A stretch of DNA of 64,000 bases from Polaribacter cellanae. GTDB taxonomy: Bacteria > Bacteroidota > Bacteroidia > Flavobacteriales > Flavobacteriaceae. A program made the translations under genes and the position numbers. Shown one piece after another: positions 12,068-34,616 of this stretch. The stretch's first letter is position 1; every line of letters begins with the position of its first letter. The DNA is taken from the NCBI RefSeq assembly GCF_017569185.1, contig NZ_CP071869.1:930001-994000 (forward strand), written 5' to 3'. Below the pieces are notes generated by a model, which saw only the letters and a program-made list of their open reading frames with translations, did not search any database and had not been told where the DNA came from.

Positions 12068-13253
12068 TTAATTTACATTTTTTAATACTCTATTCCATTG
12101 AAATTTATCTTGATAATTAGAATATAGAACATATTGCACTTTACCAATAATATTTTCTTCAGGGACGAAGCCCCAAGCTCGAGAGTCTAAAGTTCCATTT
12201 CTATTATCTCCCATCATAAAATAATAATTCTGCTTAAAAGTATAAGTAGTAACTTTTTTATTATCTATATAGAAAAAAACCATTGGTTTTTGTTATATTA
12301 CAGTTCTCGGAGCTGTTAATAGCTTTTCTATAAAATTCAAAATTTTCTTCATTTATTACTATTTTCATCCCTTTTATAGGCACAGTAACTGGTCCCATAT
12401 TATCAAATGTCCATTTTAAATTAGGTCGCTTTACAAACATTTTTTCATTTGTAATTGTGTCACTTATTAGACTTGTAGAATATATTTGATTTTGTTCTTT
12501 AAGGTAATTTAATTGTTCTTTTGTCAAACTAGCCTTGTAACTCAATAAATTTTCTTTTTTTAAAAAAATATTGTTTGAAAAAGAATCTAGAACTTTATAC
12601 AAGTTATTCAAGGATTTAACTTTAAAAGTATAGTCTTTTTTTACTGCATCTGGTTCTTTAAATAAATTGCTATTAGTATATATTTTGGTATCTCTTATAC
12701 TAAACTTATCCCCTGGTAGAGCAACACAACGTTTTACTAAAATAAAAGTTTTACTCCAAATAGAGTTAAATACAATAACGTCTCCTTGATTTATTTCTGT
12801 TGTTCCAGAAAGACGTTTATACGGCCACCAATATTCTTTTATTTTTTTTCTAGCATTCTCATTAAAATAATACCCAATATTTAGCAAAGGAATATCAAAT
12901 GGAGAGCGTGGTAATCTAGGACCATATTTTAATTTATTAACAACAATAACGTCATTAGTAAATAATGTGTTTTCCATTGATGAGCTTGGAATTTTATAGA
13001 TATCAAAAAAAACTAACTTTACAAAAATTATAATTGAAAGTAGATATGAAAAAATAAATAAGCCTTTTACTGTTTTTTTAAAGAAAGAGTTTTTAATTAA
13101 GTATATTAATTTTAACAATCCAAAATATGTTATTATTAATAACGCTAAAGTAAACGCTAGCCAGAATACACCAATCAAAAAAAATATGATAATAAATAAA
13201 AAAACTACTACTTTTTTTTTCATTTTATTAAGTTTCAATTCTTTTGTATACAT
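12068..13253 (-). pseudogene. Signal peptidase I with a frameshift
   Basis: The first 330 codons (13253-12261) hold a membrane anchor, the catalytic serine region IPSSSMENTL (Ser92) and the general-base lysine in VKRCVALPGD (Lys174). The frame then ends at TAA 12261. A second frame (12283-12068) carries the missing C-terminus, including box E (MGDNRNGTLDSRAWGF). The break is a run of seven T on minus (12273-12279); six would join both frames through NGFFYIDNKK. The intact paralogue is at 20892. It may be a true mutation, a sequencing error or programmed slippage. ATG 13223 is an alternative start. Confidence 0.8.
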
Positions 13254-17685: not shown

Positions 17686-20600
17686 TTAAGTTTTATCGGA
17701 CAACATTGTTATTGAATTATGTTTTTTTGTTATAAATAATGGTAAATAAAAGATTATTCCAATTAGAGAAAATATTAAACCTCCAATTGAACCGACAGCA
17801 AATGAAAACCAAAAGGCTTCATTTTGACCACCCCAAACAAAAGGAATTAAACCAACAATTGTTGATGTGATGGTAAGAATAACAGGAATAATTTTATAAT
17901 TAAAGGCTTTAAAATAAAGAAATCTAGAGTTTCTTTTTTGATATTGAATTTTTAAATTATTAAAATCATTCACGATATAAAGTGCAGAATTTACACCAAT
18001 ACCACATAATAATATAAATGAAGCATAGCCACCTTGGTCGAAATTGAAATCAAACACATAAAATGTTAAAAACAAACCAATAAATGAGATAGGAATCATA
18101 CTAATTATTGCAAGCGGCTGTTTTAAAGATTCCAATAAAATAGCGCATATAAAAAAGATAATTCCTATGACTATAAATAAATAATAGTACTGTTCCTTGT
18201 CTTTTTTATTCCATCTATTATATTTTTGTTCAAATACCCTATAACCGAGTGGTAACTTGGGTTCAAAACTTTTAATAGTTTTCTCTTTAACTTTTTGAGC
18301 CAACTGAAAAGTCCCTAAAAAATCATACGCAACTGTTAAACTATATTGTTGATTATTTTTTTTAATCGTATTTCCAGTTTTCTTTTTCTCTACAGTTGCT
18401 AATTGAGCTAATTTATATTGTTTATTTTGAATTGCTATTGGCGTATTCTTTAAATCCCATACATTAAACTTTTTGTATTTGTCAGAAATTAATTTCACAT
18501 TCTGTAATTCATTATTTTGAATAATAGAAGGCAATCTACCTGCGTAGACTTTATTTTTCAAGTATTCGTAAAGTTGCGCTTGAGAAACATTAGCAAGTGC
18601 TAATTTATTCGTATTAAAATCTAAATAATATTCATATAAGGAATTACTTCTATAAGCATTGCTTGTTATTTCTACTTCTTTGACTCGCGAATTAGAACTA
18701 TCTATCAATTGTTGCAATAACTGTTCTGCATAACTGTATAATTTATCATAATTATAGCCCTCTAATACAATTCTATATTGTTTTGAACCCGAACCCAAAG
18801 CATTAGAAAAACCCCTACCAATACCACTAACAGACCAATCTACCCCCCCTAAGCTAATTGCCTTTGACTCGATTAAACTTTTTAAAGTATATGGAAAACC
18901 GCCAAATTCATATTCTTTTTTAAAATAAATAGCAATATTAGAGTTTCTATAGCTAGATATTCTGGTTTCAAATAGTTCAATTTCATTAAAACGACTCAAA
19001 TATTTCTCCATTTTAGAAATAGCTTCATTCAATTGTAGTATGGTACAGCCATCTGGCATTCTACCTGTGACTCTTAATGTAGTTCTTTCAGGTTCTGAAT
19101 AATACGAATTTTCAAAAACATCTTCTGTAAACAATCTTAATGAGCCACCAATTACTTTTTCTAAAGTAGGTCTTATATCATTACTAAAATCTTCATTTCC
19201 TATTGTTTTATTATAAAGTTCAGTAAAAAAACCCTCTCCTTTTATTTCTTTAGGTAATAATTGAAATGGAATTCCAAACCCTAAAATAAACACCAACATA
19301 AACAACCATTTAAAACGTGGTTTTTTCATCCAAAAAATTATCCGTTTATAAAGATTTGTGAATCTAACAATTCTCCTTTTTCTTTTTCTAGAGTAATTGA
19401 TACGCTTTTTAGAGGTATTTATCTTATCTAAAAGTGCTGGCACATAATATAAAGACACCAACAAAGAAACACCTATATTTATGGCAATTACTAAAGCAAA
19501 ATCCAATAAATCTGCTTTTTGATTTTCCTTTAATAAAAAAATAATCATTAGCGCCCCAATCGTTGTAAGCGTTGCTGCTAAAATGGCTAAAAATACTTTT
19601 TTATTTCCTTTATTTTTAATATGATCAATCATAATAATACTATTATCTATGATAATACCAAAAGAAATAGTTATGCCCGCAAACGAATATAATTGCAATT
19701 CTACTTGAAACAAGTAATAAAAAATAATTGCGATTAATAAATTGGTAATGACGCTTAAAAATAGAATAACTAAGTATTTAAAACTTCTATTAATTAAAAG
19801 AATTAAGATTAGTAGAATGATAAAAGAAAATAAGGTGCGCTTTTGAATTTTATATAACTCTTCCACTACATACTCTGTAGTATCTTGCGTTAACTTTATA
19901 CTGTAGCCACTATCCAATTGAGCATTTAAACCTGTAACTCTTGCTTTAACAGTTCTCGCTAAATCAATAGTATTTACACCTTGCTCAGCATAAACAGTCA
20001 TATTTATACTGTTTAACCCATTTATTCTGTAGTAACTGTTCACAACAGCTTCTTTATAGGTGACTTTAGCTATGTTTTCTAATAGAATAATTCTATTTCC
20101 TATTTTTTTTATAGGAATTTTGTTCCAATTAATTTCAGCATCTCCCTTATAAGCTAAACTTAATGCTATTTCATAATTATTAGTATTGTTATTTGCTCTG
20201 TAAACACCATTACCTAATTCTTGTTCATTAAGGTATATATTAATTGCTTTTTGAATATCATTAACTGATAATTTTAATTGCAAAAGCTTATTTGTATTGT
20301 ATGTTATCACCCACTCAAAAGGAGCAGCTCCATAAATAGTAACTTTACTAACCCCTTTTAAAGTTGATAAATGAGGTAAAATATGTTTTTCTGCATATTT
20401 TTTAATATAATTAGGACTTTCAATTGCATTGATACTATACGATAAGATAGGCGCCTTGTTTTCATTTGGTGTACTAAGAGATAAGCTCGGGTAACTAACA
20501 CCTTCTGGAAGTTCTGAATAGGATTGTCTAATAAGATTTGCCATTTCAAAGCGAATGGCATCCATATTTGTGCTTTTTTTAAAATCAATGACTATATTTC

Positions 20601-20853
20601 CTCTCCCTTTATTTGACGTAGAGCTAATATTTTTTATGCCTTTGACCGTATTAAAAACACCTTCTAACTTTGCAGTAACTTCTTGCTCAAGTACTTTAGC
20701 AGAAGCATCTTGCCATCTGTAACTTACATTAATGGAAGGTAAAACTTTTGAAGGCGCTAACTGCACACTTAATAATGGAATTAAACAAACCCCAATAATT
20801 GATAAACAGATAAAAAGGGTAAGAATAGAAAATGAAGAAAATTTAAATTTCAT
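17686..20853 (-). CDS. RND-superfamily transporter (inner module)
   Basis: 1055 aa with the RND plan: N-terminal helix (about 7-28), a large periplasmic loop, a block of six helices (about 330-480), a second helix (about 515), a second loop, and a C-terminal helix block. TM4 reads ISFGIIIDNSIIMIDHI, so the AcrB Asp pair (DD) is Asp-Asn here. TM10 reads GIGVNSALYIVND, with Asn where AcrB has the proton-relay lysine. No adaptor or TolC gene is adjacent; those at 31631 and 24827 could serve. It lies between signal peptidase and transglutaminase-like genes, so a peptide substrate is inferred. Confidence 0.85.
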   Translation of the reverse strand: MKFKFSSFSILTLFICLSIIGVCLIPLLSVQLAPSKVLPSINVSYRWQDASAKVLEQEVTAKLEGVFNTVKGIKNISSTSNKGRGNIVIDFKKSTNMDAIRFEMANLIRQSYSELPEGVSYPSLSLSTPNENKAPILSYSINAIESPNYIKKYAEKHILPHLSTLKGVSKVTIYGAAPFEWVITYNTNKLLQLKLSVNDIQKAINIYLNEQELGNGVYRANNNTNNYEIALSLAYKGDAEINWNKIPIKKIGNRIILLENIAKVTYKEAVVNSYYRINGLNSINMTVYAEQGVNTIDLARTVKARVTGLNAQLDSGYSIKLTQDTTEYVVEELYKIQKRTLFSFIILLILILLINRSFKYLVILFLSVITNLLIAIIFYYLFQVELQLYSFAGITISFGIIIDNSIIMIDHIKNKGNKKVFLAILAATLTTIGALMIIFLLKENQKADLLDFALVIAINIGVSLLVSLYYVPALLDKINTSKKRINYSRKRKRRIVRFTNLYKRIIFWMKKPRFKWLFMLVFILGFGIPFQLLPKEIKGEGFFTELYNKTIGNEDFSNDIRPTLEKVIGGSLRLFTEDVFENSYYSEPERTTLRVTGRMPDGCTILQLNEAISKMEKYLSRFNEIELFETRISSYRNSNIAIYFKKEYEFGGFPYTLKSLIESKAISLGGVDWSVSGIGRGFSNALGSGSKQYRIVLEGYNYDKLYSYAEQLLQQLIDSSNSRVKEVEITSNAYRSNSLYEYYLDFNTNKLALANVSQAQLYEYLKNKVYAGRLPSIIQNNELQNVKLISDKYKKFNVWDLKNTPIAIQNKQYKLAQLATVEKKKTGNTIKKNNQQYSLTVAYDFLGTFQLAQKVKEKTIKSFEPKLPLGYRVFEQKYNRWNKKDKEQYYYLFIVIGIIFFICAILLESLKQPLAIISMIPISFIGLFLTFYVFDFNFDQGGYASFILLCGIGVNSALYIVNDFNNLKIQYQKRNSRFLYFKAFNYKIIPVILTITSTIVGLIPFVWGGQNEAFWFSFAVGSIGGLIFSLIGIIFYLPLFITKKHNSITMLSDKT

Positions 20854-20891: not shown

Positions 20892-21998
20892 CTAATATAC
20901 ACTTTTTAATAATCTATCCCATCGAAATTCATCTTGATAATTAGAATATAAAACACATTGTACTTTACCAACAATATTAGATTCTGGAAGAAACCCCCAA
21001 GCTCTAGAATCTATTGTTCCTTTTCTATTATCTCCCATCATAAAATAATAATTTTGCTTAAATGTATATGTGTTTACTTGTTTATTGTTTATGTAAAAAA
21101 CACCTTGTTTGTCTGTTAGTATACAATTTTCATACTTGTTTATTGTTTTTTTGTATAGCAAATAAATATCAAGGGTTAACTTTATTTTCATTCCCTTTTT
21201 AGGGATAATAATTGATCCCATATTATCAAGTGTCCACTTACTTTCTGATGTTTTAAGTAGTTCCTTCTTTAAATTAAAAGTATCTATTTCTTTCTGTAAA
21301 GATTCTACGTTTTTTAGCTGAGAAAATTGACTAAACTCTAACTTAGAAAGTATAGCACGTGCATACTTAGATCTTCCATTTTTTTGGAGCGAGATATTAT
21401 TTAAATTTATAGAATCTAGTTCTCTATACAAACGGTTATAATTACTAACAATAAATTTATAACTGTTTTTAACTGTACTAGGAGAATTAAACAAAATACT
21501 ATTAGTACAAATTTCGGCATCTTTTATTTTTAGTGTATCTCCAGGAAGAGCAACACAACGTTTCACTACAAAGAAATCTCGAGTTATACCCAAATTAAAC
21601 ACAAAAACATCGCCTTGTTTAATTGATGATGTACCTGATAATCTTTTATATGGCCACCATAGTTCTTTTATTCTTTTTCTAGCATTGTCATTAAAATAAT
21701 ACCCAATGTTTACCAAAGGAATATCAAACGGAGAACGCGGTAGTCTGGGGCCATATTTTAGTTTATTAACGACGATTACGTCATTTGGAAACAACGTGTT
21801 TTCCATTGATGAGCTTGGAATCTTATAGATATCAAAAACTAATAATTTAGTACATAAAACAAGGAAAAGTATAAAAATTATTTTAAATATAATTTTTATA
21901 CTTTTCTTTAACTGCTTTTGTTTGAGTAATTTATTAAAAAAACAAAATAAAGTGACAATTAATATAAGAAAAAAAGTAAAAAAAAACATATCTAACAA
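20892..21998 (-). CDS. Signal peptidase I (dedicated paralogue)
   Basis: 368 aa, an inner-membrane serine protease that cleaves after AxA. Two hydrophobic segments (about 4-20 and 35-53) precede the catalytic Ser64 in IPSSSMENTL. The base is Lys146 in VKRCVALPGD, and box E is MGDNRKGTIDSRAWGF near 330. A long lysine-rich insert (about 165-300) separates these, typical of Bacteroidota enzymes. It sits 38 bp upstream of the RND gene and downstream of the beta-propeller gene. The neighbouring peptides carry AxA-E junctions, making them obvious candidate substrates. The intact state contrasts with the frameshifted copy at 12068. Confidence 0.9.
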   Translation of the reverse strand: MLDMFFFTFFLILIVTLFCFFNKLLKQKQLKKSIKIIFKIIFILFLVLCTKLLVFDIYKIPSSSMENTLFPNDVIVVNKLKYGPRLPRSPFDIPLVNIGYYFNDNARKRIKELWWPYKRLSGTSSIKQGDVFVFNLGITRDFFVVKRCVALPGDTLKIKDAEICTNSILFNSPSTVKNSYKFIVSNYNRLYRELDSINLNNISLQKNGRSKYARAILSKLEFSQFSQLKNVESLQKEIDTFNLKKELLKTSESKWTLDNMGSIIIPKKGMKIKLTLDIYLLYKKTINKYENCILTDKQGVFYINNKQVNTYTFKQNYYFMMGDNRKGTIDSRAWGFLPESNIVGKVQCVLYSNYQDEFRWDRLLKSVY

Positions 21999-22131: not shown

Positions 22132-23163
22132 TTATAATTTATATAAATTCACTACCGAAAGTCCATCAGAATCTTGAGATAAACCATATAGTTTATTTTC
22201 ATTCTCATTGATAGTAAACTTAGAAATATTTTTATCTAACTGATAAGAGTTTAATAATTTTCCTTTAAAATCAAATACTAAAAGTTTTGTTCTACTATCT
22301 TTATGAGACATGTTTTTTTGCTGATATCCAGAATATAATGTATAAATTTTATTTTTACTCAAAACCAACCCAATAAAATGATTAACTATATTTTGAGGAA
22401 TAACGTAATTAGTTTTGACATTAAAATTTGGGTATTCAAATTCCCCTATTTTTAAAGATTTTATTAAATCCCCATTTAATTTATAAAAATTTATACGATT
22501 AAAGTATCTGCTAGCACCTACAATTAAATCATTTTCTTTACTATATTTAATAAAAGCATCATAGGCTTCAGCTCTTTTTTTTCTAGGAATATCATCAATT
22601 ATTGGATAGAAATCTATCCATTTTATTTCATTTTCTTTTTTATTATATATAAAAAATGTTCCTTCTCCTGATATGTGATCATTACCTAAAATTATTTTTT
22701 CATTATCAATTATAGTTAATTCAAAACCACCTAATATTTTAGGATTTTTTCTTTCAACAATTAAAGGGGCAAAATCATTATTTAAAATATTTTTTAAATT
22801 AAACTTTTTAAACTTTTTATGATTTATATCATGTATCCAAAATTCATTTGAATTATTATTTTCTGGCAATATTTCAGGGAAATAAAACTCATTTGGCCCA
22901 TTTCCCTTAAAGCCAAATGAGTTTATTTTTTTATAATCCTTTTCTGAATATAAATTTATGTATTTTTCACCACAACCATCAATAACGAAAAGAGAAGATT
23001 TTTGAGAATGTAATTGGTAAAAACAATTTGGTTTTATGGGTAAAACTTGGCTTTTAATTTTCTTAAATCCTGGTAATTCTATCGAATTAATATTTATATT
23101 TTCACTACAACTGGTGAAAAATATATATAAAAATAAATTAATAAATAAATATTTTTTTTTCAT
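22132..23163 (-). CDS. 6-bladed beta-propeller lipoprotein (inner module)
   Basis: 343 aa. The signal peptide has lipobox FFTSC (Cys19). Repeated blade-like strands and the phrase FGFKGNGPNEF match the Bacteroidota 6-bladed beta-propeller family, in which G-x-G-x-GPxEF is conserved. These NHL-like lipoproteins commonly accompany NVEALA peptides, although their role is not established. It starts 2 bases after the stop of the thiol lipoprotein gene, so the two are one operon. A paralogue is at 30096. Binding of the secreted peptide or a surface ligand would fit, but this is inference. Confidence 0.8.
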   Translation of the reverse strand: MKKKYLFINLFLYIFFTSCSENININSIELPGFKKIKSQVLPIKPNCFYQLHSQKSSLFVIDGCGEKYINLYSEKDYKKINSFGFKGNGPNEFYFPEILPENNNSNEFWIHDINHKKFKKFNLKNILNNDFAPLIVERKNPKILGGFELTIIDNEKIILGNDHISGEGTFFIYNKKENEIKWIDFYPIIDDIPRKKRAEAYDAFIKYSKENDLIVGASRYFNRINFYKLNGDLIKSLKIGEFEYPNFNVKTNYVIPQNIVNHFIGLVLSKNKIYTLYSGYQQKNMSHKDSRTKLLVFDFKGKLLNSYQLDKNISKFTINENENKLYGLSQDSDGLSVVNLYKL

Positions 23164-23165
23164 TT

Positions 23166-23696
23166 TTATTTCATTTTTGATTTTAACAATTCCAACATTA
23201 ATTTATTTTCAAGAGGAGATTTTATCATTACAATCGTATCATTATCTCCTAACCAAAAAGTCTCCAAGGGATTGTATATAAAATTATTTTTGCTCAAAAA
23301 AGTATCTATAGAATCTAAATATATTTCAAATGGATAATTATAGTCTTTTACTACACTTCTGAAATAAGAATTATAATCTCCAATTGCTAAAAATCTAACA
23401 GATAAGTTTTCAAGTATGTTTTTTTCTTTTATATGTTTTTTCCATTTTTCCATTTCTAAAAAACAAGAGGTACAAGAAGTGTTAATTAATTTGAGAATTT
23501 TTATGTTTTTGTTATTGTTATTATTTGTAAAATCATTTACTTTAAAGTAATCTTTTTCCACAAAATCTATCCTCTTATTTACCAGTTCAGGGTTATTGGT
23601 TTGAATAAATTTCTCGCTAACTCCATCATAGTTTTTTGAACAAGAAAAAATAAATATCACAAACAGAATCAATCCTAATTTATTTATATAATTCAA
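23166..23696 (-). CDS. Thioredoxin-fold (redoxin/TlpA-like) lipoprotein with CTSC motif
   Basis: 176 aa. Signal peptide with lipobox IFSC (Cys19). A strand then leads to NTSCTSCFLEMEKW (near residue 93), a CxxC active site placed as in TlpA/ResA-type thioredoxins. YNPLETFW later in the chain may be the cis-proline loop. It is anchored in the cell envelope by its lipid. It follows two cysteine-rich peptide genes after a perfect hairpin, and precedes the beta-propeller gene by 2 bases. Oxidising or isomerising disulfides in those peptides is a reasonable inference. Confidence 0.7.
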   Translation of the reverse strand: MNYINKLGLILFVIFIFSCSKNYDGVSEKFIQTNNPELVNKRIDFVEKDYFKVNDFTNNNNNKNIKILKLINTSCTSCFLEMEKWKKHIKEKNILENLSVRFLAIGDYNSYFRSVVKDYNYPFEIYLDSIDTFLSKNNFIYNPLETFWLGDNDTIVMIKSPLENKLMLELLKSKMK

Positions 23697-23756: not shown

Positions 23757-24026
23757 TTAAACTGTACAATTTCCTACCTCAAGTCGATTTTTAAGCCTAA
23801 CTTTTGGGCAACTCACTGTACACGTTGGTACTTTTTTTCCAAAAATCCATGTTGTTTCTCCAGCAAAACAAGCAGAATTACTTGATTGTCCTTCCTCAGC
23901 ATTTGCCGAATTTAACATTTTAATATAATCCAATTTAAAGTCTTTATTATAATTCTTTTCAAAGTTTAAATTAAAAATTGTTAAACAGGTTATAGAAAGT
24001 GCTACAATAGTTAAATTTTTTTTCAT
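23757..24026 (-). CDS. NVEALA-like cysteine-rich secreted peptide 2
   Basis: 89 aa from ATG 24026; an upstream extension to 24143 overlaps peptide 1 and is rejected. MKK start, hydrophobic segment about 4-19, a polar spacer, then a junction LNSANA-E at 41-44. The 46-residue mature part has four cysteines in the pattern CFAG, PTCxxxCP, GNCTV, the same as peptide 1. The start is 7 bases after the peptide 1 stop. The product is probably exported to the periplasm or beyond and cleaved at AxA. The role is unknown: bacteriocin, signal or surface peptide are all possible. Confidence 0.75.
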   Translation of the reverse strand: MKKNLTIVALSITCLTIFNLNFEKNYNKDFKLDYIKMLNSANAEEGQSSNSACFAGETTWIFGKKVPTCTVSCPKVRLKNRLEVGNCTV

Positions 24027-24033
24027 AATCAAA

Positions 24034-24321
24034 CTATGCAGTAACAGTACATTTCCCTTGGTAAGCTGGATTACCCATATATTCATATGGACAATTAGGT
24101 TTACATGTCGGATAGTATGATGATGTAATAACGTTTCCAGCATAACAATTGGTTTTAACCGTAGTTTCTGCTTGCGCCATAGATACAGAAAGCATATCTA
24201 AAAACACATCATTTTTCCCATCGTTATTTAACAAACTGTTACTACTCATTATTCCAAATGTCATAGCGATTGCTAAAGTAGCAATACTAATAATACTTTT
24301 TTTTGTTTTTAATTTTTTCAT
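24034..24321 (-). CDS. NVEALA-like cysteine-rich secreted peptide 1
   Basis: 95 aa. A basic start (MKKLKTKK), hydrophobic segment about 9-25, about 20-residue polar spacer with DML, then SVSMAQA-E at 45-52. The mature 44 residues contain four cysteines arranged CYAG, PTCxxxCP, GKCTV. This layout fits the NVEALA peptide family of Bacteroidota (leader ending in a small-residue/Ala/Glu junction), although the literal NVEALA string is not present. It is the first gene after a 290-nt leader that starts at the HTH gene, and is followed 7 bases on by peptide 2. Confidence 0.75.
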   Translation of the reverse strand: MKKLKTKKSIISIATLAIAMTFGIMSSNSLLNNDGKNDVFLDMLSVSMAQAETTVKTNCYAGNVITSSYYPTCKPNCPYEYMGNPAYQGKCTVTA

Positions 24322-24349
24322 TTTTAATTATTTAATTAGGTTTAAATTA

Positions 24350-24611
24350 TTTTTTTTTACAAAAGTCTTTCTAGGAAATACTACTTTTACAGAATATTAA
24401 ATAGCTATTATATTTAAAAACTATTTAGTCAATAAAAAATTAAAGACTTCCTCTGGGTGTTTTGGGCTTATTACATAGGCTCTTATTTTAGTTAAACAAT
24501 TTGTGAAACTCTTTTTTAACAACTGAATGCTCAGAGGTTTTTTTGTTTTTCATCGTTAAACTTTTACAAATACAAATTTAAACCCTCACAGGGACAAATT
24601 CTGTCACTTTG
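24350..24611 (-). repeat. Shared leader region, copy 3 (upstream of the peptide doublet)
   Basis: On minus, the stop codon of the HTH gene is followed by CAAAGTGACAGAATTTGTCC, whose core GACAGAATTTGTC is an interrupted palindrome. About 200 nt further is an AGTAGTATTTCC block 40-60 nt before the peptide 1 start. It is similar to 11795-12050 and in part to 13280-13510. It probably contains the promoter and operator for the inner module. Confidence 0.6.
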
Positions 24612-24812
24612 CTAATTTTCAAGAAAATACTTACAACTTTTTCTACAATAACATATTTTATAACCGTCGTTTCTTAAACTACTTATCATTCTTTTTATAG
24701 TTCTTACACTGCATTCAAAATCATTGGCTACTTTTTCTAAAGAGCTCAATCTCTTATGGTCTATTAGATATAGTAAGTGCCTCTCTTTTTCTTTTCTTTC
24801 AAAATAAGTCAT
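24612..24812 (-). CDS. Small HTH protein with cysteine-rich tail
   Basis: 66 aa. Residues about 17-50 form an HTH of the winged/HTH_11-like type (LSSLEKVANDFECSVRTIKRMISSL). The C-terminal tail ICYCRKSCKYFLEN holds three cysteines, which could bind metal or respond to redox state. It lies 14 bases after the TolC-like gene, so it ends the outer operon, and directly precedes the leader of the peptide doublet. A regulator of that leader is the obvious inference. Similar last codons (FLKN-stop) survive near 12040. Confidence 0.7.
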   Translation of the reverse strand: MTYFERKEKERHLLYLIDHKRLSSLEKVANDFECSVRTIKRMISSLRNDGYKICYCRKSCKYFLEN

Positions 24813-24826
24813 AGCGTTTTCTTAAA

Positions 24827-26341
24827 TTAATTGTCTAGTATGGTTTTAAAATTTCGTATTAATGGAGTATCATCTATAAAATTATACAATGTTAATTTTT
24901 GTACTTTATAATATAATACCCAATAATTTTGTAATGCTTGTATGTAGTTTTCATTTGCTTGTTGCCAAGCTTTTCTTGCGGCAGTAAGATTTAAAAAATC
25001 TACACTTCCTGACAAAAATCTTTTTTCAGTTAACTGATACGATTCTTTTGAAATTTTATTTGTTCTTAACGCCCCCAAAACCAACTCATGCTGAATATTA
25101 AAGTCTAAAACATTCTGTGTGATATCTTGTTTATAGGTTTCTTCATTTTGTTGGAGCTCAATATCTACAACATCTTTATTCATTTTAGCTGTTTTAATTT
25201 TTCCTCTACGCTCTCCCCAATCTAAAATAGGCACACTAAATTGAATACTTATATTTTGTTGGTCTAAAAACCTACCATAAGCATCTACAAAAGTTTCTGC
25301 TTGTTGGTTTAAACCATAACTGGCGGTTATAGACAAATCGAATCTATTCTCTTTAATTACTTGATCTAAATCTCTTAGTGCTTTTAGTTTTCTAATCTTT
25401 AAATCTAATATGTCTGGGTTATTTTTGTAGGCTAATTTAATGGCGGTATCTACATTTATTTTTAAATCTAATATTAATTCTGGTAACTCTGGTAGGGAAC
25501 TATTTGGTAGTTTATCTCTCAAAAATAATTTTAATGCTGTAGTAGCCTTTTGTAATGATTGTGTGTTTTGAGTCAAATTGGTATTTGCATTGTACACATC
25601 TAATTCTAAATTTAAAAGCTGATCTCTTTCAATGGCTATTAAATCGTATCGTTTTTTTCCAATACTATATAATTTTGTCGCTGTTATCTTGTTTTCTTTT
25701 GCTATTTCTACTTTTTTACTAGCTAATGCCCAGCTAAAAAATAAATTAACTGCTTTTAAATTAGTTATTTGTAATTCATATAAGAAATCTTGTTTGGCTT
25801 TTTGAAACTCTAAAGGTGCTGTTTTCTGCTCCCATTTAAAGCTATTAAAAGCCATAATAGGTTGTACCAAACCAATTCGAACTGGTGTAACATTATAGCT
25901 TTTGGTTTCAAAATCGCCAAAGTTTTCAAGCCTATTAAAACTAGAGCTTATAAATAAACTTGTACCAGTAGCTCTTATATTTTGGGTTGCAGAAATATTT
26001 GCATAACTATTAATGGTTTGCTGCTGCCTAAATACATCTATATTCTGCTCAGAATCATAACGTTCTATTAGAGCACTATTAAAAGTAAAGGGCCTACTAT
26101 TGAAGTCTATTTTGGGGAGTAAACTAGATTTATAAGATCTAAATTTCCAGTAACTAACACCATAATTTCGTTTTGCTTTAAAAATATCTAAGGAGTTTTT
26201 CCTTGCCAATTCTAAAACATTATTTAGTGTTATGTTTTGCGAAATGGAGATAACCTGTTGTTCTTGTGCACTAATTTTTATACAACTTAATAAAAAGTAG
26301 ATACCAAGAACAATTTGCTTTATTTTCATATATCTAATCAT
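24827..26341 (-). CDS. TolC-family outer membrane efflux protein
   Basis: 504 aa with signal peptide (to about residue 25, KISAQ). The chain has the long alpha-helical repeats of OEP/TolC proteins, including the family-like AARKAWQQANENYIQALQ near the end. It overlaps the RND gene by four bases (ATGA), indicating translational coupling; ATG 26329 (MKIKQIVLG) is the alternative start. It forms the outer-membrane duct of a tripartite pump with the RND at 26338 and, probably, the HlyD-type adaptor at 31631. The HTH gene follows after 14 bases. Confidence 0.88.
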   Translation of the reverse strand: MIRYMKIKQIVLGIYFLLSCIKISAQEQQVISISQNITLNNVLELARKNSLDIFKAKRNYGVSYWKFRSYKSSLLPKIDFNSRPFTFNSALIERYDSEQNIDVFRQQQTINSYANISATQNIRATGTSLFISSSFNRLENFGDFETKSYNVTPVRIGLVQPIMAFNSFKWEQKTAPLEFQKAKQDFLYELQITNLKAVNLFFSWALASKKVEIAKENKITATKLYSIGKKRYDLIAIERDQLLNLELDVYNANTNLTQNTQSLQKATTALKLFLRDKLPNSSLPELPELILDLKINVDTAIKLAYKNNPDILDLKIRKLKALRDLDQVIKENRFDLSITASYGLNQQAETFVDAYGRFLDQQNISIQFSVPILDWGERRGKIKTAKMNKDVVDIELQQNEETYKQDITQNVLDFNIQHELVLGALRTNKISKESYQLTEKRFLSGSVDFLNLTAARKAWQQANENYIQALQNYWVLYYKVQKLTLYNFIDDTPLIRNFKTILDN

Positions 26342-29300
26342 GTTTTCTTTGTAAATTGATAGTAACAGATTGGTATAAAGTATAAACTAACTATTGTGCC
26401 CAAAAGCATACCTCCAATTAAGGCTACTGCTAAAGGAGCTTGTAATTCTGCTCCTATTCCGCTAGTTAATAATAAAGGTACCAAGGCTAGAATGGTTGTT
26501 AAACTGGTCATTAATATCGGTTTTAAACGTCTTTGACCTGCAACTAATAACGCCTTCATTAACGGATATCCCTGTCTTTGTAATTGAATAATGGTATCTA
26601 TTTTTAAAATGGAATCGTTAATAATAATTCCACTCATCACTACAATACCTATCATAGACATTAAATTGATACTCATACCAAAAAGTTTTAAAAACAAAAA
26701 TGCACCTGCTAAATCTATGGGTACTTCTAACAATATAATCAACGGTAAAACAAAAGATTCAAATTGTGAGGCTAGAATAAAATACAGTAGTATTAAAGAA
26801 ATTAATAAGACTATTTTTAATTCGCTCATTAATTCTTGGTTAGAAAAAAAACTTCCAGAAAAATTTACATCGTACTGAGAGTTCTTGCTAACTACTTTCT
26901 TTATATCTGTAATAGTAGTTGCTACTTGAGCATCATCTATATGAAATGCTACAGGATAATATTCACCTTCATTACCTCCTGTAATTGTTTTTAAATCTTC
27001 TGATTTTACAGTTTTAATAAAGTTTTTTACATGAAAAACAGCACTATCTCTAGATATAACTGTTGTCTCATTTAGAATATCATTCAAATATTTTGCATTT
27101 CCTCCTAAAATTACTGGAACAAAGTTTTGATTGTCTACAATTGATAATACTTCACGCTCATTAAAAGCACTTTTTAAAGTATTAAATAACGTATTCGCAT
27201 TTACATTATACATCATTAGTTTTTCTTGATCTGCAACCAAAGTCATATACTCTTGTAGCGCAATAGGTTCTAACTTTATAGTTTCTGATTTTGCTTGTAG
27301 CTGATGCCAGATCGTTTTTAATTGTTTTTGTTGTTGACTTCCTAAATTTTCAACAGGGCGTAATTTTGCAACTAAAGAAGTTTCTTTATTTGAAAAAATT
27401 AAACTAAAAATATTGTCTACATCTTCATATACAAATACTGCATTCGGGTATGTTTTTGTCAAAAACTCATTTAAATGCCTTTTTATATTTGTTAGTGCAG
27501 TTTCTGATGTTGTTTCTACATAAAGTGTCATTTCTGAGCCTTTCGCATCTGCATTTTTATCTAAAATAAATTGCTGAGTCCCTACTAAAGCCGTTTGATT
27601 TATTAATTTTTCTTTAATAGGATTTAAAATTTCTAGTACTCTACGTTTATTTTCATCAACATTAATAGGTTCATTCCAATCTACTTTTAACAAAACCTCT
27701 GTACTTGTAAGCGCAGGCATTTGTGTTTTTGGTAAACTATTAAACAATCCAATAGTTGAAACTAAGAGAAGTATAATAATACTCCAAGAAGCCACTTGTT
27801 TTCTCATTACCCAACGAAATCCTTTTTCATACAAAACGGCATAATCTAAAGTATTTATTTTGGAAAAGAAACCTATTTCCTTGGTTATTGCATTACTTTC
27901 TTTTCTATATAATAAACGATATAAGACTGGTAATAATGTTATTGAAACAAAAAAGGAAATGAACAACCCAATACTTATTGCCATTGCTTGGTCATAAAAC
28001 AAAGCGCCACTTATACCACTTAAAAAAACCAGTGGTAGAAAAACAGCACAGGTAGTTAATGCTGAACTTAATAACGGTTTTATTACTTCATTTGTTCCTA
28101 AAACGCAAGATTCTGATAAGTTGAAACCTCTTTCTCTATACTGTGTAATATTATCGATAACAATAATAGAATTGTCAATCATTAAACCAATTCCTAAAAC
28201 TAAACCAGAAAGCGATATAATATTTATTGAAATGCCTAGAAGATGAAAAAATAAAAAACAAATAATAACTGAAGTTGGAATAGTAATTCCTATTAATAAA
28301 GGAGATTTTATATTTTTTAAAAATAAAAACATCACCGCAAATGCTAAAAGCATTCCCCATAATAAACTCTGCAATAAATTACTTATGGCAACATCTAATA
28401 ACTTGGTTTGATCTCTAGTAATAGAAAAATTAATATGCTCGTAATCTTTTTTCAGGTTTTTTATTAAGTTATTTAAAGAAGTCTTTAAATCGCCCATTCT
28501 AGCATCACTTTGTTTTATGATTGCCATTGTAAGTGCTTCGTCTCCGTTAGACAAAACTAAACCAGTTCTTTTTTGCGGATGCTCTATAACCTCCGCAAGT
28601 TCTTTCAGTTGATAAACCTTGTTATTTTTATTTATGTATATAGATTTTACATCATTTATTGTATTTAAAGAATTACCTAACCGAATATCATATTGATATT
28701 GATTATCTTTAATTAAAAGACTCCCTATATCTAAATTATTTGTTTTGATAGCCGATTCTAAATTATCTAAACTAATCCCTAATGCATCTATTTTTTTTTG
28801 ATCTACTTTTATTAAAATTTCTGACGATACTAAACCACTAATATCCACCATAGCTACTTCATTTAGCTGTTCAATTCTTTTACGAATTACTTGGTTAGAA
28901 AAACGATTGAAATCTACAAACTCCTGAGAGACGGGAAATAAATCATCTATATTATTAATTGTTGTTTTATTATTTTTAGCAGATTCTTTAAGGGTCATGC
29001 TCAAATAAAATACAGGAATATCTGTAGTATTTGCTTTTATAACCTTTGGGCGTTTAATCGTTTTGGGCAAACTACCCATTATTCTATCTACTTTTTCATT
29101 CACCTCTATAAAAGCATAGTCAATATTACTACCGTGAGAAAAACTAAGCTTAATAATCCCTAATTCATTAGTAGTTTCACTTTTAATATCTTTTAAATGA
29201 CCTACTTGCATTAAGCGAGAACGTAATGGTTTTATAATGGCATCTTCCAATTGTCTAGCAGACATATTATCTGCCTGAACCTGTACTGTAATTTCTGGAA

Positions 29301-29418
29301 TATCAATATCTGGCATTAACGATATTGGTATAAAACCAAAAGCATAAACACCTAATATCAACACCCCTAATGTTGTCATTAAAACAGCTATAGGTTTATG
29401 TATTAAAAATTTTACCAT
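26338..29418 (-). CDS. RND-superfamily transporter (outer module)
   Basis: 1026 aa, HAE1/AcrB-like topology, with N-terminal helix (about 10-30) and MPDIDIPEITVQVQA at the start of the first porter domain. TM4 has GIGLMIDNSIIVIDNI: the first Asp of the AcrB pair is kept and the second is Asn. TM10 region VMSGIIINDSILKID lacks the relay lysine at the expected place. It is coupled to the TolC gene by ATGA overlap. The 151 bp upstream to the thiol lipoprotein gene hold no gene. With the upstream adaptor it would form a complete envelope-spanning exporter; a peptide substrate is inferred from context. Confidence 0.88.
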   Translation of the reverse strand: MVKFLIHKPIAVLMTTLGVLILGVYAFGFIPISLMPDIDIPEITVQVQADNMSARQLEDAIIKPLRSRLMQVGHLKDIKSETTNELGIIKLSFSHGSNIDYAFIEVNEKVDRIMGSLPKTIKRPKVIKANTTDIPVFYLSMTLKESAKNNKTTINNIDDLFPVSQEFVDFNRFSNQVIRKRIEQLNEVAMVDISGLVSSEILIKVDQKKIDALGISLDNLESAIKTNNLDIGSLLIKDNQYQYDIRLGNSLNTINDVKSIYINKNNKVYQLKELAEVIEHPQKRTGLVLSNGDEALTMAIIKQSDARMGDLKTSLNNLIKNLKKDYEHINFSITRDQTKLLDVAISNLLQSLLWGMLLAFAVMFLFLKNIKSPLLIGITIPTSVIICFLFFHLLGISINIISLSGLVLGIGLMIDNSIIVIDNITQYRERGFNLSESCVLGTNEVIKPLLSSALTTCAVFLPLVFLSGISGALFYDQAMAISIGLFISFFVSITLLPVLYRLLYRKESNAITKEIGFFSKINTLDYAVLYEKGFRWVMRKQVASWSIIILLLVSTIGLFNSLPKTQMPALTSTEVLLKVDWNEPINVDENKRRVLEILNPIKEKLINQTALVGTQQFILDKNADAKGSEMTLYVETTSETALTNIKRHLNEFLTKTYPNAVFVYEDVDNIFSLIFSNKETSLVAKLRPVENLGSQQQKQLKTIWHQLQAKSETIKLEPIALQEYMTLVADQEKLMMYNVNANTLFNTLKSAFNEREVLSIVDNQNFVPVILGGNAKYLNDILNETTVISRDSAVFHVKNFIKTVKSEDLKTITGGNEGEYYPVAFHIDDAQVATTITDIKKVVSKNSQYDVNFSGSFFSNQELMSELKIVLLISLILLYFILASQFESFVLPLIILLEVPIDLAGAFLFLKLFGMSINLMSMIGIVVMSGIIINDSILKIDTIIQLQRQGYPLMKALLVAGQRRLKPILMTSLTTILALVPLLLTSGIGAELQAPLAVALIGGMLLGTIVSLYFIPICYYQFTKKT

Positions 29419-29569
29419 ATCAAAAAATTACAAAGTTTATTTTTATAGGTGTTAAAAAAGCAATTGTTGAAGTCCAATGTTAAATTAAGCTTGGCGAACT
29501 TTATTTTACTTTAAAAAGTATTATGTTTTGACAGGCTTACAAAGACCAAAATTTAATTTACAAACAAGT

Positions 29570-30112
29570 TTATTTACTAACACATTTAAGTATAAAATTT
29601 TCTTCAGCTTTAAAATCTCTATTATAGTTAGGAAAAAAAACATTTTTTATGCTGCCTTCTATATCTAACCTCAAAAAAACAGGAGTGTATATAAATTTTA
29701 ATTCTTTTCTAATTAAATCTTTTTCATCATTATAAACATAGTCTATATAACTGTTTTTTAGTTGATCTCTTCCGATATTGGCTGAGGTTGAAATAATATA
29801 AACTTTTTTAGATTTATTTAAGGAATCTATTTTTTTTGATATTTCATAACCAACATCAATACATGTACCACAATCAAATCCGTTATATAAGAAAATAGTT
29901 TTATTAGAAGTTTTTAAACTATCTTCTAAAATATCAGATAAAGATTTAATTTTTTTTCCTCTAATAGATTTTTTCTGTTGTTCTAAAATATTTTTTTTTA
30001 TTGATAAGTTCTTACTTATGGAATTATTTTCTTCTCTACTTTGTTTACATTGAATTATTAAAAATGTTAAAATTATCAAAGCAAAATTTTTACATCTATA
30101 ATTCATTATCAC
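29570..30112 (-). CDS. Thioredoxin-fold lipoprotein with CGTC motif
   Basis: 180 aa. Lipoprotein signal with lipobox LIIQC (Cys22). A basic linker region is followed by a thioredoxin-type strand and YNGFDCGTCIDVGYE (near residue 76), a CxxC site at the start of a helix. YTPVFLRLD about 65 residues later matches the cis-proline loop. It overlaps the end of the beta-propeller gene by 17 bases; ATG 30106 (MNYRCKN) is an alternative start. It is the counterpart of the CTSC lipoprotein at 23166, so each module pairs a peptide with a thiol lipoprotein. Confidence 0.72.
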   Translation of the reverse strand: MIMNYRCKNFALIILTFLIIQCKQSREENNSISKNLSIKKNILEQQKKSIRGKKIKSLSDILEDSLKTSNKTIFLYNGFDCGTCIDVGYEISKKIDSLNKSKKVYIISTSANIGRDQLKNSYIDYVYNDEKDLIRKELKFIYTPVFLRLDIEGSIKNVFFPNYNRDFKAEENFILKCVSK

Positions 30113-31079
30113 GTATTTTAGATTTAATTAAATTTCCAGATATAGCATCAAATCCAAAAAAAGTATTATCCTTTATAGAAAAATTCTCAAACCATCCTTT
30201 TCCAAGATTTATTATCCGTTTTGGCTTGATATTATCATCTAATAACTCTAGTTCAAGAATTTTGTGCGATTGTACTTTATTATTTTTATATGACGGTACT
30301 TTTAAATATAACTTATTCTTATCTAGAGATACATCAGAAGCAAGAACATAAAATGAATTAAATTTAGACTCTTTAGTTTTTATAAACTTTGTAAAGCTCT
30401 TAACAATATCAAGATTCGAGTAATCATATTTAGAAAGAAATTTACCTTTTAAATCATATATATTAATTTCTGGCCTTATATTGGAAATTGATATAACTTT
30501 ATTTTGATAGTTTATTAAATGACATTCGTTTTTTATAATTTCTTCGCTTTTATTTTCATAGTTTGTTAAACTACCAAAGCGAAAAGCATTACCTATGCTA
30601 TCAAATTTTGTAAAATTATATTCGTTGTCTGGACTACATATATAATAATTTGGTCCTTTTTTAAAAAAACTAAGTTGTGGATTAAATTTTATATCCTCTG
30701 GGGGATAAATTGTGTAAGAATATTTGTAATTATTAAATACTTCTATTGATTTTTTTCCATCGTTCGTAACATAAATATTTGAATTATCAACAAATATATT
30801 AAATGCTCCCAAAAAATCTCCTGGACCTCTACCTGTACTGCCAAAGGTGTTTTTTAAATTTAAATTCTTGTCAAGAACAATTACCTGATTTCGTTTATAA
30901 TCAGTTAAATATATTTGGTTATTATAATTTTTAATATTTCTAACATCAGAAATATACGTTCCGTCTTCTAGTTTATTAATAGATTTAATAAATTCTAAAT
31001 CTGTACTTTTGAAAGTGTTGTTATTTTTATTACACGAAATAAACAATATCATAAACAGAAAAAATTTAAGTGGTTTCAT
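30096..31079 (-). CDS. 6-bladed beta-propeller lipoprotein (outer module)
   Basis: 327 aa from ATG 31079, chosen because it gives a clean lipoprotein signal (MKPLKFFLFMILFISC); a start at 31103 adds eight residues. It has FGSTGRGPGDF, the hallmark GxxGxGPGxF of the Bacteroidota 6-bladed beta-propeller family, and repeated short-strand blades. It overlaps the downstream thiol lipoprotein by 17 bases. It follows peptide 3 after a perfect hairpin, the same order (peptide, hairpin, then lipoproteins) as in the inner module although the two lipoproteins are swapped. The molecular role of the family is not known. Confidence 0.8.
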   Translation of the reverse strand: MKPLKFFLFMILFISCNKNNNTFKSTDLEFIKSINKLEDGTYISDVRNIKNYNNQIYLTDYKRNQVIVLDKNLNLKNTFGSTGRGPGDFLGAFNIFVDNSNIYVTNDGKKSIEVFNNYKYSYTIYPPEDIKFNPQLSFFKKGPNYYICSPDNEYNFTKFDSIGNAFRFGSLTNYENKSEEIIKNECHLINYQNKVISISNIRPEINIYDLKGKFLSKYDYSNLDIVKSFTKFIKTKESKFNSFYVLASDVSLDKNKLYLKVPSYKNNKVQSHKILELELLDDNIKPKRIINLGKGWFENFSIKDNTFFGFDAISGNLIKSKIRDNEL

Positions 31080-31095
31080 AATTTTTATTTGTAAG

Positions 31096-31124
31096 ACAAG
31101 CATAAAGTTTTACTTTATGCTTGT
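31096..31124 (-). other. Perfect intercistronic hairpin after peptide 3
   Basis: ACAAGCATAAAG (31096-31107) pairs perfectly with CTTTATGCTTGT (31113-31124) around a 5-nt loop. It lies between the peptide 3 stop and the beta-propeller start with no U-run after it on the minus transcript. Its sequence is unrelated to the hairpin at 23713, but it holds the same position. Confidence 0.6.
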
Positions 31125-31141
31125 ATATATTTAACATCTAT

Positions 31142-31432
31142 TTAAATGCATGCACTCTTATTATTATCGCAGTTAACCCAACCGTCACCTGATAAACAAA
31201 TGTAATCACCAGTACAACTAACTGAGCCACTAACTACAGTCTGTCCGTCTATTGTTTTAAAACAATTAGCAGATGCAGAGCATCCTGAACTATCTTCCGC
31301 ACTTGCTATTTTCATAGATATTAAATGAGAAAGGTTCAACTGAAAAGTTTCATCTGCTTTTCGATGATTTAAATTAATAGCCATTACAGCTAATAGAATT
31401 ATCGTTCCAAGAATAATTTTCTTTTTTTTCAT
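31142..31432 (-). CDS. NVEALA-like cysteine-rich secreted peptide 3
   Basis: 96 aa from ATG 31432; an extension to 31528 adds residues unlike a signal and is rejected. MKKKK start, hydrophobic segment about 6-20, polar spacer, then LISMKIASA-E at 37-46. The 51-residue mature region is rich in Ser/Gly/Asp and has six cysteines, a different pattern from peptides 1 and 2. It is encoded between the HlyD adaptor and the beta-propeller lipoprotein. The 198 bp upstream hold no gene and may carry its promoter. The family assignment rests on leader layout and context. Confidence 0.7.
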   Translation of the reverse strand: MKKKKIILGTIILLAVMAINLNHRKADETFQLNLSHLISMKIASAEDSSGCSASANCFKTIDGQTVVSGSVSCTGDYICLSGDGWVNCDNNKSACI

Positions 31433-31630: not shown

Positions 31631-32734
31631 TTAATTTTCACTTCTTTTCACAAATACCTCACTATCATGCGCTAAATTCAAATTATTAGAAATCACAATA
31701 GTGTCTCCAGTTTTTAATGTTGCGCTACTTTTATCTGGGTTTGGTATTACAGCATAAGATTTACTATTTTCTAAAATTGTTAAAATATAGGTCCAATAAG
31801 CTTTCCCTTTTTTAACTGTAAATAATACTTCTTGATTATCTCTTAAAACTACAGCAGATTTAGGTACAACAAATTGATTCGGAATATCCTTTTTTACAAA
31901 AACTTTTACATTCATTCCTTCTAATAAATTACCATCATTCTTTACTTTAGCTCTAATTAAAATAGTACCATCTTTTTCAACTTGTGGATTTATTGTAGTT
32001 ACTTTTCCTTTATAAGTTTTATTTGAAGCAAAAGGTTCAATAGAGATTCTATCCTTTACCTTTATGTCTTTAAGTTCAGATTCTATAATATAAAATTCAA
32101 CCTCAAAAATTGCATCATTTATTAAAGTAAGAAATTCTTTCCCTGAATAAATTTGATCATATTTTTTACTATTCATATTGGCTACTTTACCGCTAAAAGG
32201 AGCTATTAATTTGGTTGATTTTAAATCGAACTGAGTATTTTTTAATTGATGAATTGCATTTTTATAGCCAGATTTAATTGCCATCATCTCATATTCTTTT
32301 TCAGGTATATCTTCTTTATTTTCTGAATTAAACCCTCTTCTTATTTGTAAATCATTAAATTCTAAAGTAGCCTGCTTTAAATCGATCTCTGCCTTGGTTA
32401 CTTTTTGTTGATATGTAAAAGCATCTAAACTTGCTAATACTTTTCCTTTTTTAACATAAGTACCATTTTTAACGTAAATATTAGTCAATTTTTCACTAAC
32501 ATTAAATTTAAGTTCACTTTTTTCTAACGCTACCAAACGCCCATTACTCACTAATTCTTTTTTAAAAATTCCTTTGTTTAAAACAAGGATATTTACTTCG
32601 TTTTTATCTGGTAAGTATTCTTTTTTAGTTATTGAATTTTCCTTATCTTCCTTAGGTTTTGTACAATTCAATAAGAAACCAACGCAAAACAATAAATAAA
32701 AACATTTAACCAAATACTTATTTTTCTTATTCAT
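31631..32734 (-). CDS. Periplasmic adaptor (HlyD/RND membrane-fusion) lipoprotein
   Basis: 367 aa. Lipobox FLLNC (Cys24). Order typical of adaptors: beta strand and lipoyl half (LTNIYVKNGTYVKKGKVLASLD), a short coiled-coil hairpin (about 110-160), second lipoyl half (LIAPFSGKVANMNSKKYDQI), beta barrel (DRISIEPFASNKTYKGKVTTINP) and a membrane-proximal domain with VVPKSAVV. It would link an RND pump to TolC; the pump at 26338 and the channel at 24827 are downstream on the same strand. It overlaps the O-antigen-ligase-like gene by eight bases. Confidence 0.88.
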   Translation of the reverse strand: MNKKNKYLVKCFYLLFCVGFLLNCTKPKEDKENSITKKEYLPDKNEVNILVLNKGIFKKELVSNGRLVALEKSELKFNVSEKLTNIYVKNGTYVKKGKVLASLDAFTYQQKVTKAEIDLKQATLEFNDLQIRRGFNSENKEDIPEKEYEMMAIKSGYKNAIHQLKNTQFDLKSTKLIAPFSGKVANMNSKKYDQIYSGKEFLTLINDAIFEVEFYIIESELKDIKVKDRISIEPFASNKTYKGKVTTINPQVEKDGTILIRAKVKNDGNLLEGMNVKVFVKKDIPNQFVVPKSAVVLRDNQEVLFTVKKGKAYWTYILTILENSKSYAVIPNPDKSSATLKTGDTIVISNNLNLAHDSEVFVKRSEN

Positions 32735-34616
32735 TATTTTTTTTTTGATTATAATTGCTTAATATCTTGTTCACTTCTATTTTTATTTCTTTTATAGCGG
32801 TTGACGGCACTTTTATATTTTTTTTTAAAATCGTTTTCGAAATAGCAATTGCTTTTTCATTTTCACCACTTTCTTCATATAACTTAGCTTGTAGATATAA
32901 AGGGTAAAATCGAATAGGAATCATATTCGCAGCATGTTTATAAGCTATCTCTGCCTTGCTATAATCTTTTATATTTTTATAAGCATCACCTAAAGCCGTT
33001 TCTATAATGGTTGTGTTTAAATATTGTTTGGATTTTTCTAAAATTTGTATCGCTTTTTCATTTTGTTTATTCATTGATAGCGTCTTGCCATAATTCATTA
33101 AAAAATCACCATTTTTATTAAGTGTAGGATAAGCTTTAACATATTCTTCAACTGCTCCTATGTAATCACCATACTGGTAAGTAATTGATGCTTTTTTCCA
33201 TTGTTTGAAACTGTTATCCAATTTTTTTGTGTAAGAATAACCACTATAGATTCCTGTAAAGCCTAACACAAAAACAAATACTTTAAATGCCCAAAGAGTA
33301 TATTTAGGTCTATTATTAAAATTAAGAACTCGATACTTCTCTCTATCCAAACTTCCTAAAAGAGCAAGAAGCATTACTAAAATAATTTTGATGGGTAATA
33401 TTTGCATAGGATATGAAACAAGAGCAAAAACACCAATGCCTAAAAACGTTGCTTTTACTATTAAAAAAAAGAATCTGTTTTCATCAGCAGCCTTTATTTT
33501 GAATAATACAAACAATACAATAACCAACAACAATAAACCTATAAACCCATTTTCAGTTATAAATTGTAACCATTCATTGAAAGCATAATTGGTATTATCT
33601 GCAACTAACGCATCTATGGTTTCTCCGTGTTTTTTAAAATAACCTGCTTGATAATTCATATAATGGGTTTTAAAATCATCAAAACCAACTCCAGTAGCAG
33701 GAAAATCTTTTACAATTTCTGTAGTTACCTTCCAGATAAACAAACGACCATCAGAAGACCCTTTTTTAAGATGATAGATTCCAAACAAACCAGCAAACAG
33801 AAAAATTAGTGTAGCTAAAAACAAAGCAGTTCTTTGTGCTCGATTAATTTTCTTAAACGTATTTCTAATAAAACTATATTTAAACTCTAGTAAAACAAGA
33901 CTACTTAATAATACTGCCAACCAAGCCCCTCTAGATCGTGTTGCAGGTATTACTATAATTACACTAATTAGCCCCAGCAGTGGTATATATTCAAAAATAT
34001 ATTTAATTATTTTTCTTGTTTTTGTCGAGCTTTTTGTAATTGATGCATTTATTTTAACTATTATTTTTTTTCTGAACAAATACATACCTAGTGCAATTGG
34101 CCACACCGTAGCCAAAAAACCAGCATAGGGTCCTGGATTAAAAAAGCTACCAGTTATTTTAAAACCAGAATGATTTGAAGATAAATAACCCAATAATTGC
34201 AAATTTCCATGAATTGATTGAGCAATACCAGAAATGATAACTGCTAACAGTAACCAGAGATATGTTTTTAAAGAAAAAGTTCTTATAATAAAATAGATAA
34301 TTCCTAATCCTATCAATTCTATATAACGTAAAGAGAAACCAAAATTTGGTTGAATAAAGTATCTATTTATTGATATATATCCAAACAACAACAATATGGC
34401 AATATCGAGTTTGGTAACTTGAAACTCTTTAAATAAAGATGTAAAGAACATAATTAAAAAAACTTCAAAAAGAGCCACACAACTATATGCAAAAACAATA
34501 AATTTACTTGTTATTGTTGATTGTATGTAATCAGCTAAATTGAGTTGTGGCAGAACTACCAACAACAAACCTATGCTAATCAATAAAAAATAATTTATAG
34601 TTTTAGTAAAAAACAT
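32727..34616 (-). CDS. O-antigen ligase (Wzy_C)-like membrane protein with TPR C-terminus
   Basis: 629 aa. About ten to twelve membrane helices span residues 1-440, with the Wzy/WaaL/PglL-type region containing GSFFNPGPYAGFLA, ATRSRGAWLA and the periplasmic loop GVGFDDFKTHYMNYQAGYF. The C-terminal 150 residues are TPR-like helix pairs (YGDYIGAVEEYVKA, NEKAIQILEKSKQYL, YSKAEIAYKHAANMI). Relatives join glycans to lipid A, polymerise O-units or glycosylate proteins. The 8-base overlap with the adaptor gene and the nearby peptide suggest that peptide glycosylation or another transfer reaction should be considered, but nothing in the sequence proves the acceptor. Confidence 0.7.
   Translation of the reverse strand: MFFTKTINYFLLISIGLLLVVLPQLNLADYIQSTITSKFIVFAYSCVALFEVFLIMFFTSLFKEFQVTKLDIAILLLFGYISINRYFIQPNFGFSLRYIELIGLGIIYFIIRTFSLKTYLWLLLAVIISGIAQSIHGNLQLLGYLSSNHSGFKITGSFFNPGPYAGFLATVWPIALGMYLFRKKIIVKINASITKSSTKTRKIIKYIFEYIPLLGLISVIIVIPATRSRGAWLAVLLSSLVLLEFKYSFIRNTFKKINRAQRTALFLATLIFLFAGLFGIYHLKKGSSDGRLFIWKVTTEIVKDFPATGVGFDDFKTHYMNYQAGYFKKHGETIDALVADNTNYAFNEWLQFITENGFIGLLLLVIVLFVLFKIKAADENRFFFLIVKATFLGIGVFALVSYPMQILPIKIILVMLLALLGSLDREKYRVLNFNNRPKYTLWAFKVFVFVLGFTGIYSGYSYTKKLDNSFKQWKKASITYQYGDYIGAVEEYVKAYPTLNKNGDFLMNYGKTLSMNKQNEKAIQILEKSKQYLNTTIIETALGDAYKNIKDYSKAEIAYKHAANMIPIRFYPLYLQAKLYEESGENEKAIAISKTILKKNIKVPSTAIKEIKIEVNKILSNYNQKKNNE

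Follow-up and report, generated by a model that had tools for sequence, protein, structure and literature searches.

Among the small Cys-containing peptides of Bacteroidetes, the bacteroidetocins have a thiol oxidoreductase gene nearby and are made with a GG leader of 15 to 16 amino acids (aa) that is cut by an ABC transporter/peptidase (PMC6671954). For a second family, NVEALA (PF14055), as for the gene cluster described here, no paper was found among the open-licence papers searched. Cargo-specific signal peptidase paralogues are known elsewhere, as SipA in Streptococcus pilus loci and as TraF. Here, we analyzed a 64,000-nucleotide stretch of the Polaribacter cellanae genome (the window; NCBI RefSeq assembly GCF_017569185.1, contig NZ_CP071869.1, positions 930,001 to 994,000 of the forward strand), in which a cluster of genes encodes small Cys-containing peptides, a type I signal peptidase, and an exporter of the resistance-nodulation-division (RND) type. 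Positions are counted from the first letter of the window, and all features given lie on its minus strand. We consider it fairly probable that this cluster represents a Bacteroidota-wide peptide maturation and export system in which a dedicated signal peptidase cuts at a local, portable motif, releasing Cys-rich peptides for RND-TolC export. Like the bacteroidetocins, the peptides are small, contain Cys, belong to the same phylum, and have a thiol oxidoreductase gene nearby. In contrast to the bacteroidetocins, the window system has an AxA leader of 43 to 51 aa, a peptidase of the S26 family, and an RND permease, and the exporter genes by the precursors are those for RND, membrane fusion protein (MFP), and TolC.

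Three intact precursors are encoded in the window: precursor 1 (95 aa; 24034 to 24321), precursor 2 (89 aa; 23757 to 24026), and precursor 3 (96 aa; 31142 to 31432). In the translations of all three, a lysine-rich start is followed by a hydrophobic segment of 14 to 17 residues, a spacer, and then AxA directly before Glu. The leader of precursor 1 begins with MKKLKTKK and SIISIATLAIAMTFGIM and ends in AQA (residues 49 to 51; codons at 24169 to 24177), with a predicted cut before Glu52. That of precursor 2 begins with MKKN and LTIVALSITCLTIFNL and ends in ANA (residues 41 to 43; 23898 to 23906), the cut being predicted before Glu44, and that of precursor 3 begins with MKKKK and IILGTIILLAVMAINL and ends in ASA (residues 43 to 45; 31298 to 31306) before Glu46. 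Precursors 1 and 2 have a common Cys pattern and are likely duplicates. The leaders show ordinary Sec features, namely, a basic n-region, a hydrophobic h-region, and small residues at positions -3 and -1. None of the three precursors has a lipobox Cys where the hydrophobic segment ends, and their leaders contain no GG site. An AlphaFold model of a precursor was set aside for its low confidence (pLDDT, 58). A fourth precursor (11380 to 11755) has decayed, as the sequence-only reading of this stretch had claimed, and keeps its junction: the leader is out of frame after the ATG, and the leader model matches at 11620 to 11751 with one TAA, which lies in the spacer, while ANA and Glu are still readable.

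To compare spacings, we defined where the hydrophobic segment ends by a single objective rule. By this rule, the Ala at -1 lies 25 to 26 residues past the segment in the window precursors and 16 to 26 residues (median, 23) past it in 19 precursors including those of relatives. The claim that AQA, ANA, or ASA stands directly before Glu far beyond the hydrophobic segment was thus borne out in all three precursors. The same measure gave 2 to 8 residues for ordinary-length precursors at related loci, in agreement with the short distance between h-region and cut site that is known for ordinary signal peptides. These syntenic precursors served as the comparison, since counting AxA distances over ordinary secreted proteins in general gave a noisy result owing to incomplete removal of membrane proteins. 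A Sec signal is built of an n region, an h region, and a polar c region; the residues at -1 and -3 are small, and a helix breaker often stands between -4 and -6 (PMC9360617). The leaders of the window and its relatives share the n, h, and -1/-3 features of such a signal but not its short distance from h-region to cut.

The end of the leader is conserved as a motif. Across the 19 precursors, which come from many genera, Ala(-3) and Ala(-1) are invariant and position +1 is Glu in 17 and Gln in 2; thus, the position of AxA before Glu is not due to chance, and it fits the specificity of signal peptidase I, as had been proposed. The common plan of these leaders is MKK or MKN, the hydrophobic segment, a polar linker, and a 16-residue junction with the consensus (D/N)h(D/N)LxxLhxhN(T/S)AxAE, in which the predicted cut falls before E; ANA is the commonest ending. 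Column by column, the junction reads D/N, hydrophobic, D/N, Leu(-12), two small or polar residues, Leu/Ile(-9), hydrophobic(-8), small, hydrophobic(-6), often Asn(-5), Thr/Ser(-4), Ala(-3), mostly Asn(-2), and Ala(-1), with Glu at +1. The spacer had been described as polar. This is true of its first part, the linker (median Kyte-Doolittle value, -1.6), but the nine residues preceding AxA are weakly hydrophobic (+1.2) and well conserved, and the last hydrophobic residue, at -6, is near the usual end point of an ordinary h-region. An amphipathic helix in the spacer was not supported, as the hydrophobic-moment permutation test was not significant. The mature parts are short, contain Cys, can hardly be aligned, and vary strongly straight after the junction. 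A 20-column model of the junction only gave clear above-background matches solely in genomes with the dedicated peptidase, and it misses the divergent junctions of the window precursors themselves.

The peptidase gene 20892 (20892 to 21989) is intact and encodes 365 aa from an ATG, or 368 aa from a TTG at 21998, with the Ser and Lys motifs of the catalytic dyad. The protein matches the curated S26 family at 118 bits (cut-off, 47), and its AlphaFold model has the LepB fold by Foldseek, in which SipA was a weak fold match only. A second peptidase gene of the dedicated type, 12261 (12072 to 13253), has a frameshift in a T7 run that leaves the conserved C-terminal MMGDNR/SRAWG block in another frame. 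Both of the signal peptidase genes that the sequence-only reading had counted in the array are therefore present, but only 20892 is intact, so the array has one working enzyme. The frameshifted gene adjoins the decayed precursor, as if one array unit had decayed together. A housekeeping LepB is also encoded in the same genome. The dedicated enzymes resemble the housekeeping LepB of Bacteroidota in their S26 fold, Ser/Lys motifs, and predicted AxA-type substrates, and differ from it in forming a separate clade, in being encoded in a peptide cluster, and in their length (about 350 to 410 aa versus 510 to 570 aa for housekeeping LepB in Flavobacteriaceae). By general description, they can be likened to SipA and TraF as signal peptidase relatives encoded with their cargo.

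We examined how the peptidase and the precursors occur together in three genome samples. Among 249 Flavobacteriaceae genomes, a clear full-length leader match was present in 7, all of which have the paralogue (12 genomes in total, by reading of the match list; P = 7e-11), an association that is partly ascertained because the leader model derives from loci identified via the peptidase. The paralogue was found in 4 of 169 genomes of another genus, and the 3 genomes with leader matches, of which at least one is probably a seed species, were all among those 4 (P = 5e-6). For 61 Bacteroidales genomes, we used Pfam's own model for NVEALA and the S26 model for the peptidase; each was found in 8 genomes, and they agreed in 6 (6/8 versus 2/53; Fisher P = 1e-5). 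In a tree made without NVEALA-type enzymes except for a single one, the dedicated peptidases split from housekeeping LepB with support of 98/92, and that single enzyme fell elsewhere on a very long branch. With five NVEALA-type enzymes in the tree, the support for the split was 88/80. In these trees, 20892 does not group with LepB of the same families. That the peptidase is dedicated to this system, as had been suggested, is thus supported by gene order, by co-occurrence, and by trees.

The same peptidase clade stands beside leaders with spacings of 2 to 8 residues, of 13 to 28 residues, and once of 147 residues, which fits the earlier suggestion of a relaxed distance. Ordinary-length leaders with a same-clade peptidase are found at loci L130 (in the genus of the window and syntenic with it), L131, L134, and L135. 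Because syntenic loci with ordinary-length leaders, including L130, have the dedicated enzyme, long spacing is not the reason for its presence. In the short-leader precursors of L130 (16858 to 17654) and L131 (1563 to 1769), both in the window's genus, E(L/I)xPGG or EIDPGKG is kept after the predicted cut, a stretch that resembles a propeptide bearing a GG site. The spacing of 147 residues comes from a 223-aa lipoprotein-like protein of genome G737 (L216, 9786 to 10457), whose gene is just upstream of a dedicated S26 gene in a cluster without a long-leader precursor. This protein has a lipobox-like N terminus, a stretch of about 130 residues, SLSSLFTLNTANA followed by Glu at residues 161 to 174, and a Cys-rich tail. 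Its homologue in G748 (L220) keeps the Cys-rich C terminus and has no junction, and G748 gave no match to the dedicated peptidase at a threshold of 1e-45. These data suggest that the junction may be a portable local signal.

Loci reached via peptidase 20892 come from Flavobacterium resistens, F. glycines, Algibacter, Arenibacter, Flavivirga, other Flavobacteriaceae, and a Bacteroidales metagenome-assembled genome (MAG). Most of them hold much of one set of genes: the Wzy_C protein, MFP, RND permease 2, TolC, at least one precursor, a propeller, S26, RND permease 1, a thioredoxin-like or DUF1573-like lipoprotein, and a transglutaminase-like lipoprotein. In the window, this set comprises 6-bladed propeller lipoproteins of two families (22132 to 23163, PF15869; 30096 to 31103, PF17170), thioredoxin-like lipoproteins with a CxxC motif (23166 to 23696) and with CGTC (29570 to 30112), and two large lipoproteins, the first with transglutaminase-like motifs (13594 to 15621) and the second transglutaminase-like as well (15868 to 17679). 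The names thioredoxin-like, DUF1573-like, and transglutaminase-like are our readings of sequence motifs, the window copies having no Pfam or curated match. Both transglutaminase-like lipoproteins are kept in relatives from Flavobacteriaceae to Bacteroidales, the first also in NVEALA loci. The families of a tripartite RND exporter occur together: a TolC-type outer membrane efflux protein (24827 to 26341; PF02321), RND permease 2 (26338 to 29418; PF00873), the MFP (31631 to 32734; PF16576 and PF13437), and RND permease 1 (17686 to 20853; PF00873), which adjoins the peptidase in most relatives. There are thus two different RND permeases, both kept in relatives, for a single MFP and TolC. A membrane protein with an O-antigen-ligase domain (Wzy_C) and TPR-like repeats (32727 to 34616; PF04932) marks the cluster edge in relatives. 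Satellite loci in G248 consist of a precursor, a propeller, and a small lipoprotein only, with no peptidase or pump, and therefore the machinery must be acting in trans at these loci. In G153, precursor, propeller, and S26 genes occur in many copies on contigs 5, 12, 24, 25, 28, and 29 (L124, L136 to L139, and L172), several of them on short contigs or at the ends of contigs, as though the assembly had been interrupted by a repeated array. PADLOC found no defence match.

The genes around NVEALA proteins are the same. Genomes of a Bacteroidales family that match PF14055 hold the cluster with S26, both propeller families, MFP, RND permease 2, TolC, and RND permease 1, together with the transglutaminase-like lipoprotein and the Wzy_C-like protein. 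NVEALA proteins also resemble the window precursors in their short basic start, hydrophobic segment, spacer, hydrophobic stretch, junction (xEALA in NVEALA proteins), and Cys-containing mature part. However, the window junction is ANA, AQA, or ASA before Glu instead of NVEALA, and neither the window precursors nor any other protein of their own genome matches PF14055 (gathering cut-off, 27 bits). Between the two stands a Bacteroidales MAG locus, L048, whose precursors end, for example, in LVIDNVVAFA with Glu next. One of these precursors scores 17.1 bits against PF14055, below the cut-off, and the S26 of the locus groups with the dedicated enzymes of flavobacteria. A comparison of the flavobacterial and NVEALA leader-set profiles gave 89% probability, mainly from the hydrophobic segment. 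With a shared cluster and precursors below the cut-off, we speak of the same system and not of members of PF14055. Two further NVEALA matches were weak: one in G366, and L001 (G174), which was rejected as a lipoprotein without the cluster around it.

In the model that we favor, Sec would insert each precursor via its N-terminal hydrophobic segment, leaving the Cys-rich part periplasmic. The dedicated peptidase would then read the local junction motif and not a fixed distance, cutting between Ala and Glu. Thioredoxin-like lipoproteins may form or check disulfides, propeller lipoproteins may bind or hand over the peptide, and the predicted MFP-RND-TolC pump would export it. From the hypervariable mature part, one might guess at a role in competition or signalling. 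A bolder form, which we put forward tentatively and with some doubt, is that this type I signal peptidase family of Bacteroidota is a motif-specific releasing protease that cuts the portable junction at any distance from the membrane, so that peptides come loose from carriers anchored in the membrane or by lipid and can be exported by RND-TolC.

Several observations weigh against the favored model. Housekeeping LepB, encoded in the same genome, also recognises AxA, and the predicted AxA/Glu cut site is placed from sequence alone. Loci with ordinary-length leaders carry the dedicated peptidase as well, and the portable-junction pair of G737 and G748 is a single case. Part of the co-occurrence in Flavobacteriaceae reflects ascertainment, the 88/80 split lacks firm support and has its NVEALA-type peptidases on long branches, and the leader and NVEALA profiles show a modest similarity, chiefly within the hydrophobic segment. 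The chief alternative is that housekeeping LepB cuts at AxA/Glu, with LxxLhxh as a second short h-region, and that the dedicated paralogue is a further copy that serves dose or timing. The weak hydrophobicity of the nine residues before AxA, ending at -6 as next to an ordinary c-region, would fit this, as would the presence of LepB in the genome. However, the link between the dedicated clade and the precursors persists across families and orders, and this in genomes that have LepB too; we consider this explanation unlikely.

The leader can also be seen as a polar linker that is separable from a conserved motif. In a two-step process, the other option raised by the sequence-only reading, LepB or another protease would cut just past the hydrophobic segment and a second protease would then trim the spacer as far as AxA. 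In the three window precursors, however, the hydrophobic segment is not directly followed by a conserved ordinary cut site, which makes this route quite improbable. More improbable still is that AxA/Glu is a conserved binding motif and that the peptides remain membrane anchored. The conservation of the motif does exceed what a cut site needs, and cleavage there is our inference, but the small residues at -3 and -1 are invariant, a signal peptidase paralogue adjoins, and strong variation begins straight after the motif.

The favored model places the named but unexplained NVEALA family, along with its counterparts in flavobacteria, in a single cluster for maturation and export that has a signal peptidase of its own. 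The 20-column junction motif gives a search handle for peptides with mature parts that vary too much to be found by ordinary searches. The unusual spacing is real, and the pairing of enzyme and substrate is therefore now testable; the cluster is a clean test case for asking if a relative of signal peptidase I can cut at a site distant from the membrane segment. If true, the releasing-protease reading would give the NVEALA peptides a machine and would go against the rule that places the cut of signal peptidase I beside the h-region.

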